Assembly (NCBI RefSeq): GCF_002943105.1
Contig: NZ_PTPZ01000002.1
Span: 211,582 to 275,581 of the forward strand
Reading direction: 5' to 3'
DNA: 64,000 bases
Source of the DNA: Cloacibacterium normanense
Lineage (GTDB): Bacteria; Bacteroidota; Bacteroidia; Flavobacteriales; Weeksellaceae
Below, one piece after another: positions 36,105-41,526 of this stretch (positions are counted from its first letter, which is position 1; every line of letters begins with the position of its first letter). The position numbers and the translations under genes were made by a program. Below the pieces are notes generated by a model. The model saw nothing but the letters and a program-made list of their open reading frames with translations, was not told where the DNA came from and did no database searches.

Positions 36105-36176
36105 ATTGTTAAAAGTATTATTGGGTATAAGTTATATATTGATAAAGTTTGTTACAATGATTTAATGAGCATTTTT

Positions 36177-36574
36177 TTAACACATAAGTCACATAAAGAT
36201 TTAACATTGAAAATATACAATAGAACAAATAAGAAGAAAATCAAAGATTTTCAAAAACTAATGTGCTCTCATGTTTCTTTGTCCTGTTTTTTAATCAACT
36301 CATGTGTTTTATTTTTTCAAGCATTTTTTTCTTTAACACATAAGTCACATAAAGATTTAAAATTGAAAATATACAATAGAACAAATAAGAAGAAAATCAA
36401 AGATTTTCAAAAACTATTGTGTTCTCATGTTTCTTTATCCTGTTTTTTTAATCAACTTATGTGTTTTAAATAAAATATTTTTTTCCTTAACACATAAGTC
36501 ACATAAAGATTTTCAAAAACTAATGTGCTCTTATGTTTCTTTATCCTGTTTTTTTTAATCAACTCATGTGTTAA
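36177..36574 (+). repeat. three tandem copies of a palindrome-ended intergenic element
   Basis: Units begin with TTAACACATAAGTCACATAA at 36177, 36333 and 36487 and end with AATCAACTCATGTGTT-like sequence, so the unit ends are inverted repeats (ACACATAAG / CTCATGTGT). Units 1 and 2 are about 155 bp. Unit 3 is about 88 bp and lacks an internal block of about 50 bp (ATTGAAAATATACAATAGAA onward). The 102-codon plus-strand frame here follows the repeat and is not a gene. Nothing else is seen between prc and surE. Confidence 0.85.
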
Positions 36575-36658: not shown

Positions 36659-36666
36659 TAAATTTG
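36659..36666 (+). promoter_or_regulatory. candidate -7 box for surE
   Basis: TAAATTTG fits TAnnTTTG and lies 18 bp before the surE ATG. The -33 half is not visible. Confidence 0.4.
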
Positions 36667-36684
36667 TCTAAAATTAAAATTTAT

Positions 36685-37452
36685 ATGAAAAAACCTTTGA
36701 TATTGGTAACCAATGATGACGGAATTACCGCTCCAGGAATTAGAAATTTGGTGAATTTTATGAACGAAATAGGCGAAGTAGTTGTAGTTGCGCCTAATTC
36801 ACCTCAATCTGGAAAAGGACATGCCATTACCATCAATTCTACCCTTACTTTCGAAGAAATAAATTTAGAAGGACCTCAGCGTGATTATTCACTGAGCGGA
36901 ACTCCTGTAGATTGCGTAAAATTTGCCCTAGATAAAGTCTTGACCAGAAAACCAGATTTAGTGGTTTCGGGAATTAATCACGGTGCCAATTCTTCGATTA
37001 ATGTCATTTATTCTGGTACCATGTCTGCCGCAGTAGAAGCAGGTGTAGAAGGTTTACAGTCTATAGGATTTTCTCTGCTGGATTTTGCGTGGGATGCAGA
37101 TTTCTCACAATGCAAAGACTATATCCAAAATATTGTGAAAAAAGTTTTAGAAAATCCATTGCCAAAAGGAATTGTGCTGAATGTGAACATTCCGAAACTG
37201 AAAAAAGAAGAAATAAAAGGCATCAAAGTTTGCAGACAAGCCAATGCAAAATGGGAAGAAAGCTTTGACGAACGTGTAAATCCTCATGGTAAAAAATACT
37301 ATTGGCTCACAGGTTATTTTAACAACCAAGACGAAGGAAAAGATGCCGATGAAAACGCACTTGCCGATGGTTACATCTCTGTAGTTCCCGTGAAATTTGA
37401 TTTAACTGCCCACGAATATTTACAGGAATTGGGAGAGGTTTTGAATGGGTAA
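36685..37452 (+). CDS. surE: 5'-nucleotidase SurE
   Basis: SurE is a metal-dependent nucleoside monophosphate phosphatase linked to stationary-phase survival. The start at 36685 (MKKPLILVTNDDGITAPGI) places the catalytic NDDG near residue 10; an upstream in-frame TTG falls within the promoter box and is rejected. The 255-aa protein has SGTPVDCV (about 86-93), SGINHGAN (about 107-114) and YSGTMSAAVEA (about 120-130). The C-terminus VKFDLTAHEYLQELGEVLNG is of interest because a similar tail is found at 39010-39078. Confidence 0.94.
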   Translation: MKKPLILVTNDDGITAPGIRNLVNFMNEIGEVVVVAPNSPQSGKGHAITINSTLTFEEINLEGPQRDYSLSGTPVDCVKFALDKVLTRKPDLVVSGINHGANSSINVIYSGTMSAAVEAGVEGLQSIGFSLLDFAWDADFSQCKDYIQNIVKKVLENPLPKGIVLNVNIPKLKKEEIKGIKVCRQANAKWEESFDERVNPHGKKYYWLTGYFNNQDEGKDADENALADGYISVVPVKFDLTAHEYLQELGEVLNG

Positions 37453-37548
37453 GATAAAAGTTTTTAAAGCAAAAACTTTTGTATATTTGATAATTGGTTT
37501 ACATTTTATAAAAATGAAATCGTTCAGTCCAATGTGTGAAAATTTGTT

Positions 37549-37556
37549 TATTTTTG
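37549..37556 (+). promoter_or_regulatory. candidate -7 box for the PIN module
   Basis: TATTTTTG fits TAnnTTTG and ends four bases before the GTG start of the first gene, the same gap as at 30141-30148. No -33 TTTG is at standard spacing. A second possible box, TATATTTG, is at 37482-37489. Confidence 0.3.
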
Positions 37557-37560
37557 TCAA

Positions 37561-38343
37561 GTGGAAAAAAATGGTCAAATAGAAATAAGAGTTTCTGGTA
37601 AAATTGGAAATGTTGATATAAATCCTGATAACTTTGATATCAGGGAAATTATTTCTATTCTTGAAAATGTTGACGACCTTTTATATAATGGCGACAAAAA
37701 AAATAGACCATTAATTTCATACGACATTCAAGAAGGTTCCGTTAGAAACATTTTTAAAACAGGGATACAATATATAGTTAGTTTTAATGCAATCTTAGGT
37801 CTTATTACAACAACAAATTCAATTGATTATTTAGATTTAGGAACAGCAAGAGCAATCGAAAACTTACAAGAATTAGCCAAAAAAAAGGATTTTATTTTTG
37901 AAATTAACACATCTGTCAAAGGAACTAATTCAATAAGAATAGATAAAAATTCTGACTACAGAAGAAGCGAAGTAATTTGGTCTGAAGCAGAATTTTATTT
38001 TTACGGAAAAATTACAAATGCTGGTGGAAAAGATAAAGCGAACATTCATTTGCTTACTGATGAATATGGAACCGTAAGAATACAGACGCCTATTACATTT
38101 CTTGAGCATCAAGAAGAAAATATTTTATATAAGCATTTAGGAATCCGAGCAAAAGGGAAACAACATTCGGAAAATGGAGATATTGACTTTTCTAATTTAG
38201 ATTTTATAGAATTAATAGATTATAGCCCTATATATGATGAAAATTATTTGAAAAGCTTAAGAACCAAAGCAAAAAAATCTTGGCTTTCAAATATAAATGC
38301 AGATGAATGGTTAAGACAAATAAGAGGAAGTTATGAAAGTTAA
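37561..38343 (+). CDS. 260-aa protein of unknown function, partner of a PIN-domain nuclease
   Basis: The GTG start is required because an in-frame TGA lies 24 bp upstream and no ATG is available near the conserved-looking N-terminus. The protein has no signal peptide. It has an N-terminal alpha/beta region (GQIEIRVSGKIGNVDINPDN), a segment SYDIQEGSVRNIFKTGIQYI (about 53-72) followed by a hydrophobic stretch FNAILGLITTTNSIDYL, a beta-rich middle and a basic helical C-terminus (KSLRTKAKKSWLSNINADEW). I recall similar uncharacterised proteins next to PIN genes but no domain name. It overlaps the PIN gene by 11 bp, so the two are translationally coupled. An antitoxin or sensor role is inference. 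Confidence 0.7.
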   Translation: MEKNGQIEIRVSGKIGNVDINPDNFDIREIISILENVDDLLYNGDKKNRPLISYDIQEGSVRNIFKTGIQYIVSFNAILGLITTTNSIDYLDLGTARAIENLQELAKKKDFIFEINTSVKGTNSIRIDKNSDYRRSEVIWSEAEFYFYGKITNAGGKDKANIHLLTDEYGTVRIQTPITFLEHQEENILYKHLGIRAKGKQHSENGDIDFSNLDFIELIDYSPIYDENYLKSLRTKAKKSWLSNINADEWLRQIRGSYES

Positions 38344-38818
38344 TGGTGTTCTATTAGATACAAGTTTTTTTATACGCTTTCTGAACGATGATGATCCATT
38401 ATTCGAAAACGCTCTAGAATATTACAAATATTTTCTACGTGAAGAAATTAAAATGTATATTTCTACAATTTCAGTTGCCGAGTATTGTGTTGGTGGCTCA
38501 ATCACAGAATTACCCTTGAGAAATTTGGCAATTCTTCCATTTAATTTGAATCATTCAGTAAAAACTGGGGAAATAGCAAGTGTAGTTTTCACAAAAAAAG
38601 GGAAACTCAAATTAAAAGAAAGAAATCTTATACCAAATGATTCTAAATTATTTTCACAAGCTGATGTTGAAAATACAATTTCTTTCTATTTATCTTCCGA
38701 TTCTGAAAGTAACAAAATTTATAAATTGTTGGAAGATGAAAATCACAAATTGAAATTTAAATTTATTGATTTAAAAATTCCTCCAAATGAATATTTTGGA
38801 TTTTTAGATTTGAGATAA
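38333..38818 (+). CDS. PIN-domain protein, probable ribonuclease
   Basis: PIN domains are Mg2+-dependent RNases, often the toxin of VapBC systems. The 161-aa protein opens with VNGVLLDTSFFIRFL (Asp about 9). It has STISVAEYCVGG (Glu about 50), PNDSKLFSQADV (Asp about 103, with Asp111) and FYLSSDSE (Asp about 123), so the expected acidic cluster is complete. It lacks a VapB-like small antitoxin upstream. Instead it overlaps the 260-aa gene by 11 bp. A repeat with a hairpin terminator (38846-39007) follows. Confidence 0.75.
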   Translation: MKVNGVLLDTSFFIRFLNDDDPLFENALEYYKYFLREEIKMYISTISVAEYCVGGSITELPLRNLAILPFNLNHSVKTGEIASVVFTKKGKLKLKERNLIPNDSKLFSQADVENTISFYLSSDSESNKIYKLLEDENHKLKFKFIDLKIPPNEYFGFLDLR

Positions 38819-38845
38819 AAAATAAAAGCATTTCACAAATTTATA

Positions 38846-39007
38846 ACCCAATCTCTCGGATTTGTAATCCGTGACTACAATAAAAATATAAACTCTAAAA
38901 TCCGCAAAAAGCGGATTTTTTTATGGGCAATTCTTTGAGTTTTCTAGGAGTGAAATAGGAGTTTTCCTTCGTGTTTACTCGTGGTTTGTTCGTGTTTCCT
39001 TCGAATC
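38846..39007 (+). repeat. 162-bp direct repeat, copy A
   Basis: This runs from ACCCAATCTCTCGGATTTGT to GTGTTTCCTTCGAATC and aligns without length difference to 40134-40295. It contains the hairpin CGGATT-TGT-AATCCG, a terminator-like hairpin (AAAATCCGC-AAAAA-GCGGATTTTTT, about 38896-38922) and the reiterated words GTTTACTCG, GTTTGTTCG. The copies flank a 1.1-kb cassette. Confidence 0.9.
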
Positions 39008-39009
39008 TC

Positions 39010-39078
39010 GTAAAATTTGATTTGACTGACTACGCCTCAATTACAATATTATCAACGATTCTATATAAAACAAAATAA
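39010..39078 (+). pseudogene. possible remnant of a surE 3' end
   Basis: Read in frame from 39010 the sequence gives VKFDLTDYASITILSTILYK and then TK and a stop. The first six residues equal the SurE tail VKFDLT (position 37390 region), and the underlying DNA is similar for about 20 bp. It immediately follows repeat copy A. It could be the displaced original end of surE, but the match is short. Confidence 0.35.
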
Positions 39079-39098
39079 TTTTTTATTTTTTTTGAATA

Positions 39099-39130
39099 TT
39101 TGCATAATTAAAAATGACATTTTATATTTG
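39099..39130 (+). promoter_or_regulatory. exact Bacteroidota-type promoter
   Basis: TTTG (39099-39102), 20 bp, then TATATTTG (39123-39130): both boxes and spacing are ideal. It lies 27 bp before the ATG of the decayed lipoprotein gene and would also serve the downstream small membrane protein. Confidence 0.65.
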
Positions 39131-39157
39131 TAATAATAAACATTAAAAATAAAATTT

Positions 39158-39887
39158 ATGAAAAATTTACTATTGTAAGCATTTATTTTATTACTTGTAT
39201 CTTGTTCAAGAGACTCTGTTTCAATTACTGATACGAGTTCTTTAACGGTATCCAAGACAAATTACAAAATTTTTAAAGGAAAAGACAAATCTTTATATTA
39301 AGATAAGTATTTGAAATATTTAGAGAAAGTAAGAAAGAAGTTAAGCTTAAAAAATAGTATGACCTATCGTATAGATGGAAACTCATTTGAACAATTAATG
39401 CCCGCAGATGAATTTACTTATTATTTAACAGGAGAATATGTTGGTGACCCATATGATGATGTTTTGTTGGCGGATGGAGAAATGTTTATGCTGCTAATAG
39501 TCTTGAAGAAGCCGAAGCTAAAAATGAACTTTCAGAATCTATCGAATCTGCCAAAAACTATTTACTTTCTCACCAATTAGATTTTTCTGATGAATGGTCT
39601 GCTGCCAGCCCCAATTATATTAATGCTGCTAATATTGTAATTGAGATGGAACAAAAATTAGGTATCCCTACTTATGATGGTTATTCTTCTAATTTAAATG
39701 TAAGTCGCTCTGTTGGTGAATGCTTTCTTGAGGCAACAGGTATACATCTTTATATGATGGTTGGTATGGCAAATTTGCAACAAAAAGAATGTTAATAGCT
39801 GCTGTTGGAAAAGTTGCAACAAGGTTTCTAGGATATGTTGGTGCAGTAATTGCAGTTGCAGACTTTTCATATTGTATGTGGGGTTAA
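39158..39887 (+). pseudogene. decayed lipoprotein gene (two in-frame stops, at least two frameshifts)
   Basis: Joined across the lesions, the product would be a lipoprotein: MKNLLL-stop-AFILLLVSCSRDS (lipobox VSCS), then a second stop after KGKDKSLY. A readable region follows (YRIDGNSFEQLMPADEFTYY, to about 39480), then a frameshift into NVYAANSLEEAEAKNELSES and on to SVGECFLEATG. A second shift near 39745-39765 leads into a hydrophobic Gly-rich tail (KVATRFLGYVGAVIAVADFS, ending YCMWG-stop). The promoter is intact. I do not know the family. Confidence 0.7.
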
Positions 39888-39897
39888 ATAAATAATT

Positions 39898-40083
39898 ATG
39901 GAAACGATATTTAATTTATTAGTAATTTTTATTTGCTTGCTAGGTTTATATTCGTTAGCAAAAGAGACAATTTCTTACTACAAAAAGAAAAAAAAGTTAT
40001 CACTTTATGACAAAAACTATCGTATCTTTTTATTTACTATTGGAATTTATATTATAGTAAGTAAATTGTCTACTATTTTATAA
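39898..40083 (+). CDS. 61-aa membrane protein downstream of the lipoprotein pseudogene
   Basis: It starts 10 bp after the pseudogene stop and looks like its operon partner. There are two transmembrane helices (about 3-21, IFNLLVIFICLLGLYSLA, and about 43-58, IFLFTIGIYIIVSKL) separated by a Lys-rich loop (YYKKKKKLSLYDKNYR). No signal peptidase site is obvious. Pairing a small two-span protein with a lipoprotein that has a Gly-rich hydrophobic tail recalls immunity-effector pairs, but this is speculation. Confidence 0.5.
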   Translation: METIFNLLVIFICLLGLYSLAKETISYYKKKKKLSLYDKNYRIFLFTIGIYIIVSKLSTIL

Positions 40084-40133
40084 TTATTAAGAATATATAA
40101 TGATAATATTACACTATATTAGACCTATATAAA

Positions 40134-40295
40134 ACCCGATGTCTCGGATTTGTAATCCGTGACTACAATAAAAATATAAACCCTAAAATCCGCTTTTTGC
40201 GGTTTTTTTTATGGGAAATTCTTTGAGTTTTCTTGGAGTCAAATAAGAGTTTTGCTTGGGGTTTGTTCGTGGTTTGTTCGTGTTTCCTTCGAATC
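40134..40295 (+). repeat. 162-bp direct repeat, copy B
   Basis: This runs from ACCCGATGTCTCGGATTTGT to TTTCCTTCGAATC with the same length as copy A and about 90% identity by eye. The terminator-like hairpin is AATCCGC-TTTTT-GCGG plus T8 (about 40186-40210). The following bases (about 40325-40365) contain words complementary to its right half (AATAAACCAGGAACAAACG, then ACTTGAGTCAAC), so copy B is one arm of a longer imperfect palindrome that copy A lacks. Confidence 0.9.
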
Positions 40296-40482: not shown

Positions 40483-41526
40483 ATGCGCATAGAATATGAT
40501 ATAAAATTGGGCTTCAAAGACGTGATGTTTCGCCCAAAACGTTCTACTCTTAAATCTCGTTCACAAGTAAGTCTAGAAAGAGAATTTATCTTTAGAAATT
40601 CTAAAAAAACTTGGCGAGGTGTTCCCATTATCGCTGCTAATATGGATACGGTAGGAACTTTTGAAATGGCTTTAGAATTGGCAAAAGAAAAAATCATTAC
40701 CGCTATTCATAAGCATTACACGCTAGAAGAATGGTCGGCATTTCTAGAAAATTCTCCAGAAAGCATTTACCAATATATCGCCATCAGCTCTGGAACAGGA
40801 AGCAGTGACGAAGAAAAAATTAAAGAAATCATCAGCAAATTCCCGAAAATAGATTTCATCTGCATCGATGTAGCCAATGGTTATTCGGAACATTTTGTGA
40901 ATTTTGTGAAAAAAGTTCGCGCAGATTTTCCAGATAAAACCATTATCGCAGGAAATGTAGTGACTGGCGAAATGGTAGAAGAACTCATTTTAGCCGGTGC
41001 TGATATTATAAAAGTAGGAATTGGCCCTGGTTCTGTGTGTACTACCCGAGTAAAAACAGGAGTGGGTTATCCTCAACTTTCGGCGATTATAGAATGTGCA
41101 GATGCAGCGCATGGTTTGGGTGGACATATCATTGGTGATGGTGGTTGCAAAGTTCCGGGAGATGTAGCCAAAGCTTTTGGTGGAGGCGCAGATTTTGTAA
41201 TGCTAGGCGGAATGTTTGCTGGTCACGACGAAAGTGGCGGTGAAATGGTAGAAGAAAACGGTAAAAAATTCAGATTGTTCTACGGAATGAGTTCTAAAAC
41301 CGCTATGGAAAAACACAGTGGTGGCGTTGCAGAATATCGTGCTTCTGAAGGGAAAACTGTAAAGGTAAAATACAAAGGGCCAGTTGCCGAAACCGTGAAA
41401 GATATTTTAGGCGGAGTACGCTCTACTTGTACGTATGTTGGCGCTTCTCAACTCAAGGAATTATCGAAAAGAACGACCTTTATCAGAGTACAAGAACAGC
41501 ATAACGAAGTATTTGGAAACGAATAG
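40483..41526 (+). CDS. guaC: GMP reductase
   Basis: This enzyme reduces GMP to IMP with NADPH, recycling guanine nucleotides. The 347-aa protein belongs to the IMPDH/GMPR fold. Motifs: [10 protein letters not shown] (about 51-60), the catalytic loop [11 protein letters not shown] (Cys about 186, the same position as in animal GMPR), [14 protein letters not shown], and no CBS insert, which separates it from IMPDH. The C-terminus includes [13 protein letters not shown]. Monocistronic. Confidence 0.94.

Follow-up and report, generated by a model that had tools for sequence, protein, structure and literature searches.

What does a PIN-domain nuclease do when the gene that precedes it does not encode a VapB-type antitoxin? 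This question is raised by two overlapping genes in the window, the stretch of 64,000 nucleotides analysed here. Few bacterial toxins are as common as those of the PIN/VapC type, for which a handful of antitoxin classes is recognised, the antitoxins being small and mostly DNA-binding. An earlier note on this DNA had described, ahead of the PIN gene, a GTG-started gene for a 260-aa protein with an overlap of 11 bp between both genes, and the ORF coordinates agree with that description (overlap at 38333-38343). The partner gene does not start at 37549, where the note had placed it; the true start is 37561, and 37549 is the first base of a promoter box. The host genome carries a single copy of the pair. 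The features are collected in Table 1.

Table 1. Coordinates of the gene pair, its predicted parts and its flanks in the window.
Feature	Positions	Strand	Basis or remark
surE, left flank	36664..37452	+	PF01975, E = 7.9e-66; each of the 7 genomes of the genus has it
Inserted unit holding just the two genes	37491..38829 (boundaries approximate)	+	Sister-genome breakpoints; homology limits
-7 box TATTTTTG, Bacteroidota TAnnTTTG	37549..37556	+	Ends 4 nt before the GTG
Partner gene, 260 aa, predicted antitoxin	37561..38343	+	GTG start; without Pfam, NCBIfam, PADLOC or PHROG match
Predicted OB-fold, residues 139-225	codons 37975..38235	+	AlphaFold, block pLDDT mostly 83-95; structural matches with Z up to 8.5
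Two-helix C-terminal tail, residues 227-256	codons 38239..38328	+	AlphaFold model; alignment
PIN gene, 161 aa, predicted RNase toxin	38333..38818	+	ATG start; D9, E50, D103, D123; PF01850; AlphaFold pLDDT 90.6; VapC-like model
guaC-like gene (GMP reductase/IMP dehydrogenase-like), right flank	40483..41526	+	Named by sequence reading; downstream of surE in 5 congeners

The PIN protein matched Pfam PF01850 with E = 1.9e-5, above the gathering score, and the same profile was matched at E <= 1 by 54 of the 55 PIN proteins of the family. Its AlphaFold model was structurally similar to VapC2, VapC11, VapC15 and FitB (Z 12-13.6), the best match being VapC2 with Z 13.6 and FitB having Z 12.5, so that the model and the profile both gave a PIN fold. 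The acidic cluster Asp9, Glu50, Asp103 and Asp123, already pointed out in the earlier note, is present and is kept among the relatives, D9 in 70/71 and each of the other three in 71/71. Also conserved were S11, a serine near the first Asp (70/71), and S44, R97 and K105 (71/71); the acidic tetrad with a nearby Ser/Thr that defines the PIN superfamily was thus found. Considering that the active-site residues are so constrained, the nuclease site is presumably in use, and from sequence and model we infer that the protein would be a metal-dependent endoribonuclease. None of the NCBIfam VapC models reached E 0.001 against the 55 PIN proteins (best 0.044), which places them outside the VapC families named in that library. 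Sequence searches of solved structures gave nothing credible for the PIN protein or for its partner.

The partner in the window had no credible family in Pfam, NCBIfam, PADLOC or PHROG, and neither had 56 partner relatives in Pfam and NCBIfam. RHH, AbrB, Phd or HTH antitoxin domains were found in none of these 56 proteins with the two libraries, in line with the earlier statement that the partner is not of the VapB type. It had been described as a protein with no recognised domain; this stands for the sequence, and not for the predicted structure, in which an OB-fold was detected. The AlphaFold model (pLDDT 84, pTM 0.54, the domain arrangement being therefore uncertain) consists of an N-terminal beta-alpha region, the OB-fold strands plus a helix (140-219) and two helices at 227-240 and 247-254. 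The predicted strand order b1-b2-b3-a-b4-b5, a five-stranded barrel with the helix between strands 3 and 4, is that of an OB-fold. Over residues 139-225 the structural matches were SSB, RecO, ExoVII and class II tRNA synthetase anticodon domains with Z 6.4-8.5, values that for some models, as the tool warns, are hardly above the general background; nearly all the leading matches were OB-folds. The body of the partner is thus predicted to be an OB-fold. The C-terminal tail was modelled with low confidence (block pLDDT 57-73), and it contains two nearly invariant residues, W250 and R/K255, each in 55/56 partners; the basic residue at 255 was found in 12/12 sequences of the widest partner alignment.

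Partner genes were sought in several sets of genomes. The family scan detected the partner in 10/197 genomes, at unrelated chromosomal sites and with the PIN gene next to it in each; a search of species representatives, one genome each, yielded 73 loci, a search of viral contigs 3, and 12 carriers turned up among 395 sampled Bacteroidota genomes searched with the partner. With profiles of both proteins the PIN gene was found beside the partner in nearly all loci, of which 87 were left after removal of duplicates. Both frames were scored as intact in 71 of these distinct loci, or 70 once a frameshift in L026 was seen in the DNA. The pair was distributed among Bacteroidota, Ignavibacteria MAGs, Bordetella and phage-like contigs; the Bordetella loci come from an isolate and a plasmid, and the loci of Acidobacteria and some Burkholderiales are MAGs, possibly misbinned. 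In plasmid and phage record collections there was one plasmid, of Bordetella bronchiseptica (NZ_CP132331), where the pair is annotated as two "hypothetical proteins". A draw of 299 Pseudomonadota genomes contained no carrier beyond the seed genome.

The linkage was also examined from the side of the PIN gene. With PIN as bait, 13 carriers were found among 395 Bacteroidota genomes, 11 of which also matched the partner profile; of the remaining two, G470 has a divergent partner and G442 a 5'-truncated PIN relic. The partner was beside 10/10 PIN genes in 395 genomes of the order and accompanied 6/7 in viral contigs, the seventh (L150) being a fragmentary PIN gene, upstream of terminase-like genes. 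Divergent members were recovered too: in L100 the partner was detected only by its profile and a divergent PIN gene lies behind it, whereas L114 was detected only by its PIN and has a divergent partner before it; both PIN proteins were confirmed by Pfam. No intact PIN gene without partner was present among the PIN-seeded matches from Bacteroidota, the order or viral contigs. The conserved pairing across phyla that the earlier note had named as support was found as near-total linkage.

The layout is equally constant. Partner and PIN genes are spaced by -11, -8 or -4 nt in 66/71 pairs, and among the 71 two-frame loci the partner starts with GTG in 49 and with ATG in 19. Two linked genes, the antitoxin usually first, with a short overlap, are the arrangement of toxin-antitoxin modules, and the recurrence of this order and spacing in about 70 distinct loci is more than expected by chance. 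The distance matrices of partner and PIN proteins were correlated (Spearman 0.90, and 0.74 and 0.84 within two clades), values reached by 0/500 permutations. A three-gene system was considered and rejected, the neighbours varying by locus and being mostly housekeeping genes. It is well supported that the locus is a mobile module made up of a PIN gene and a partner that is not of the VapB type, and an undescribed one: no published description of the pair was found in the open-access literature, subscription journals and preprints lying mostly outside the scope of that search.

Such obligate pairing and co-evolution would also fit a two-subunit RNA-processing enzyme with a nontoxic housekeeping or stress role, where RNA would be brought by the OB-fold partner to a PIN subunit that needs it; OB-fold and PIN are a sensible combination for this purpose. 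The two possibilities differ in what they predict for damaged copies, because an enzyme of two necessary subunits should suffer damage in both genes in proportion to their length. Intact partners were found beside PIN genes with frameshifts (L026, L045, L059, where the 5' end of the partner lies off the contig, L068, L082 and L085), with internal deletions (L033 and L043), with a disruption at about codon 37 (L051) or with a break near a contig end (L054), and in one case (L101, genome G306) the PIN gene is missing. The frameshift in L082 falls exactly at the catalytic D103; this locus and L085 are from isolate genomes. Both genes are damaged, or the PIN gene is lost, in L039, L055 and L062, and the lesion in L030 is ambiguous, at a contig end. 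A broken partner beside an intact PIN gene was found in none of the loci. Were gene length alone to decide where lesions fall, all 7 of the clearest would lie in the PIN gene with a probability of 1.2e-3, and all 11 with 2.6e-5. Several lesions come from metagenome assemblies, and assembly errors do not explain the skew because these too would spread by gene length. For most loci the search had started from the partner, a design that misses deletions of the whole partner with a surviving PIN; the 13 and 10 carriers of the PIN-seeded searches cover this gap only in part. As a separate observation, L101 lies near an addiction-module-like ORF on the opposite strand and a gene resembling type I restriction specificity genes, and G306 has a second, complete pair.

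This asymmetry is as expected, at the level of sequence, if the partner restrains a harmful PIN protein. A toxin never kept without its antitoxin is the mark of toxin-antitoxin modules, and the PIN-seeded searches and the lesions together gave this picture. The earlier note had proposed that the large protein "senses or restrains" the RNase; restraining is favoured over sensing. Taking into account also that a patchy, horizontal and phage-borne spread is unlike that of housekeeping genes, we regard the RNA-processing enzyme as highly unlikely.

The mobility of the pair was evident from the boundaries of its homology. The match between sister genomes and the window breaks off at 37489/37490 and resumes at 38845-38848, and copies at different sites are homologous from 37517/37539 to 38811/38822, that is, over the two genes plus 20-45 bp upstream. 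From these homology limits and the continuity of the sister genomes, what entered the stretch between surE and the guaC-like gene was about 1.3 kb long and carried the two genes alone. What had been read as a surE-like tail is a complete surE. The interval between surE and guaC is hypervariable across the genus (L129-L133): restriction-modification genes occupy it in G056 (an N6-methylase set) and G070 (an HTH-methylase set), G080 has a ParDE-like pair of toxin (ParE) and partner together with a lipoprotein, and there is an esterase-like gene in G039 and a membrane protein in G010. At other sites most neighbours are housekeeping genes without relation to the pair, and defence genes such as DndC/D, DarG and an MTase are only scattered among them; on phage-like contigs (L086, L087, L088, L147 and L148) the pair lies amid head, baseplate, terminase, holin and integrase-like genes, named from reading the sequences. 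Judged from sequence, the pair is patchily distributed and moves horizontally, passed among bacteria and prophages.

The long repeats that had been said to border the module are real (121 and 178 nt), and no matched repeat pair frames the two genes. The 121-nt repeat is in three copies at 36172-36554, between a prc-like protease gene and surE. The 178-nt direct repeat (38830-39007 and 40118-40295, 87% identity) is guaC-upstream sequence with a terminator-like stem and brackets a lipoprotein segment; cassettes may enter the hotspot by recombination at this repeat, because congeners without the lipoprotein segment have one copy. The stretch 38848-40193, with the lipoprotein gene, is 97% identical to that of congener G080 (L132). 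The lipoprotein gene itself (about 39158-39884) is a 243-aa open frame in G080 and is frameshifted into two frames in the window, so that the hotspot does decay, and the pair could be a decaying remnant or selfish cassette with no present function in this genome. Against this, both frames are open, the catalytic residues and the promoter box are intact and the proteins are 93% identical to those of a copy at another site; we give this explanation only a very slight chance.

The company of phage genes and the restriction-modification genes in the hotspot of sister genomes bear on another explanation, that of an anti-phage abortive-infection pair whose selected function is defence. Here the OB-fold partner would be mainly a sensor of phage nucleic acid or protein and would switch the PIN protein on; the mechanism would overlap with that of a toxin-antitoxin pair. 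Binding of single-stranded nucleic acid is common among OB-folds, which suits the predicted fold. In addition, the full-length partner model matched structurally a 370-aa phage protein named DUF6575 (E 7.5e-8, TM 0.43), and a DUF6575 protein was reported among the anti-phage systems of an E. coli screen (PMC9519451). Both are suggestive only, as clues to kinship or defence; the PF20215 (DUF6575) profile matched 0/56 partners. With this profile there were two partial matches among 150 genomes of Pseudomonadota, and 148 of Bacteroidota gave none, which is no sign of absence. The PADLOC 2.0.0 models matched neither protein, and the defence genes near other copies are scattered among mostly housekeeping neighbours. 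Residence in defence islands was dropped as a main argument, since PADLOC gave few matches for 128 neighbours. Altogether we assign to abortive infection a low but appreciable probability.

The position of the promoter box was also informative. TAnnTTTG ending at most 12 nt from the start codon was found in 42/80 partner loci, compared with 13/532 control ORFs, which were the other ORFs of the same loci (Fisher p 3e-31), and its end lies most commonly 4 nt before the partner start codon. This placement is about 20 times commoner at partner genes than at neighbouring genes. The usual spacing from the -7 box to the first transcribed base is established knowledge. Considering the position of the box and this spacing, the mRNA would begin at or next to the GTG, and judging from the consensus it is probably leaderless or near-leaderless. 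An operator role was rejected for a 10-bp inverted repeat at about 37456-37480, which is host DNA and is present in sister genomes lacking the pair.

The reading we prefer, and consider likely, is that the pair is a mobile type II-like toxin-antitoxin module in which the PIN protein is the toxin and the partner a large antitoxin that binds and blocks it. Two features were counted against it: the partner is about three times the size of a typical VapB, and it has no recognised DNA-binding antitoxin domain. The earlier proposal of an undescribed toxin-antitoxin or defence pair holds as far as an undescribed, linked PIN module with a non-VapB partner is concerned, as linkage, compact mobility and lesions on the PIN side alone indicate. 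Toxicity, neutralisation and release trigger are what we infer for such a module. The antitoxin would be made first, from an mRNA whose first bases are probably the GTG, and with the start of the PIN gene overlapping the partner stop the toxin would be translated only behind the antitoxin. The free PIN endoribonuclease would harm the cell; the partner would bind and block it, the tail (227-256) with its conserved Trp and basic residue wrapping the PIN protein and filling the acidic pocket as VapB tails do. The OB-fold body may bind nucleic acid or a partner and so set when the toxin is freed, and release might occur by proteolysis of the antitoxin or by its capture by phage nucleic acid. A more specific version, a phage-moved PIN defence module whose OB-fold antitoxin is a nucleic-acid-sensing lock with a VapB-like tail, released on invading single-stranded nucleic acid, and whose leaderless GTG mRNA stays translated when normal initiation fails, seems to us quite unlikely.

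What is new in this toxin-antitoxin candidate is the conserved mobile pairing, a partner unnamed in four family libraries and a predicted OB-fold where a DNA-binding domain was expected. Should the partner be an antitoxin, a new antitoxin class is represented by it; there would be a direct route to test the OB-fold as a release switch, and several dozen pairs of "hypothetical proteins" could be named.

By comparison with known systems, two-gene toxin-antitoxin or defence pairs with a large, structured neutralising partner are represented by DarTG and HEPN-MNT, whose toxin and partner folds we take to be unrelated to those of the PIN/OB-fold pair. The mobile two-gene modules with a PIN RNase described by Makarova et al. 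2009 (PMC2701414) and by NetFlax (PMC10440598) are closer; the PIN partners given in the former include RHH, AbrB, Phd, COG2442, COG2886, COG2856, MerR, Xre and others, and a 260-aa OB-fold partner is not named among the PIN pairs in the portions of both works available to us. The pair resembles VapBC and FitAB in the fold of the PIN toxin, the gene in the antitoxin position coming first, the short overlap and the mobility. It differs from VapBC in the partner, which has 260 aa compared with about 70-90 aa in VapB and a predicted OB-fold body in place of RHH, AbrB, Phd or HTH, and in the toxin, of 161 aa and without an NCBIfam VapC model at E 0.001. VapB11 wraps its PIN toxin with two linker-joined C-terminal helices, of which the final one sits at the active site (PMC6265470), and the two-helix tail of the partner could serve in the same way, an analogy drawn from the model that is a lead and not a test. 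The pair works most like VapBC, yet on the antitoxin side it falls outside that family.
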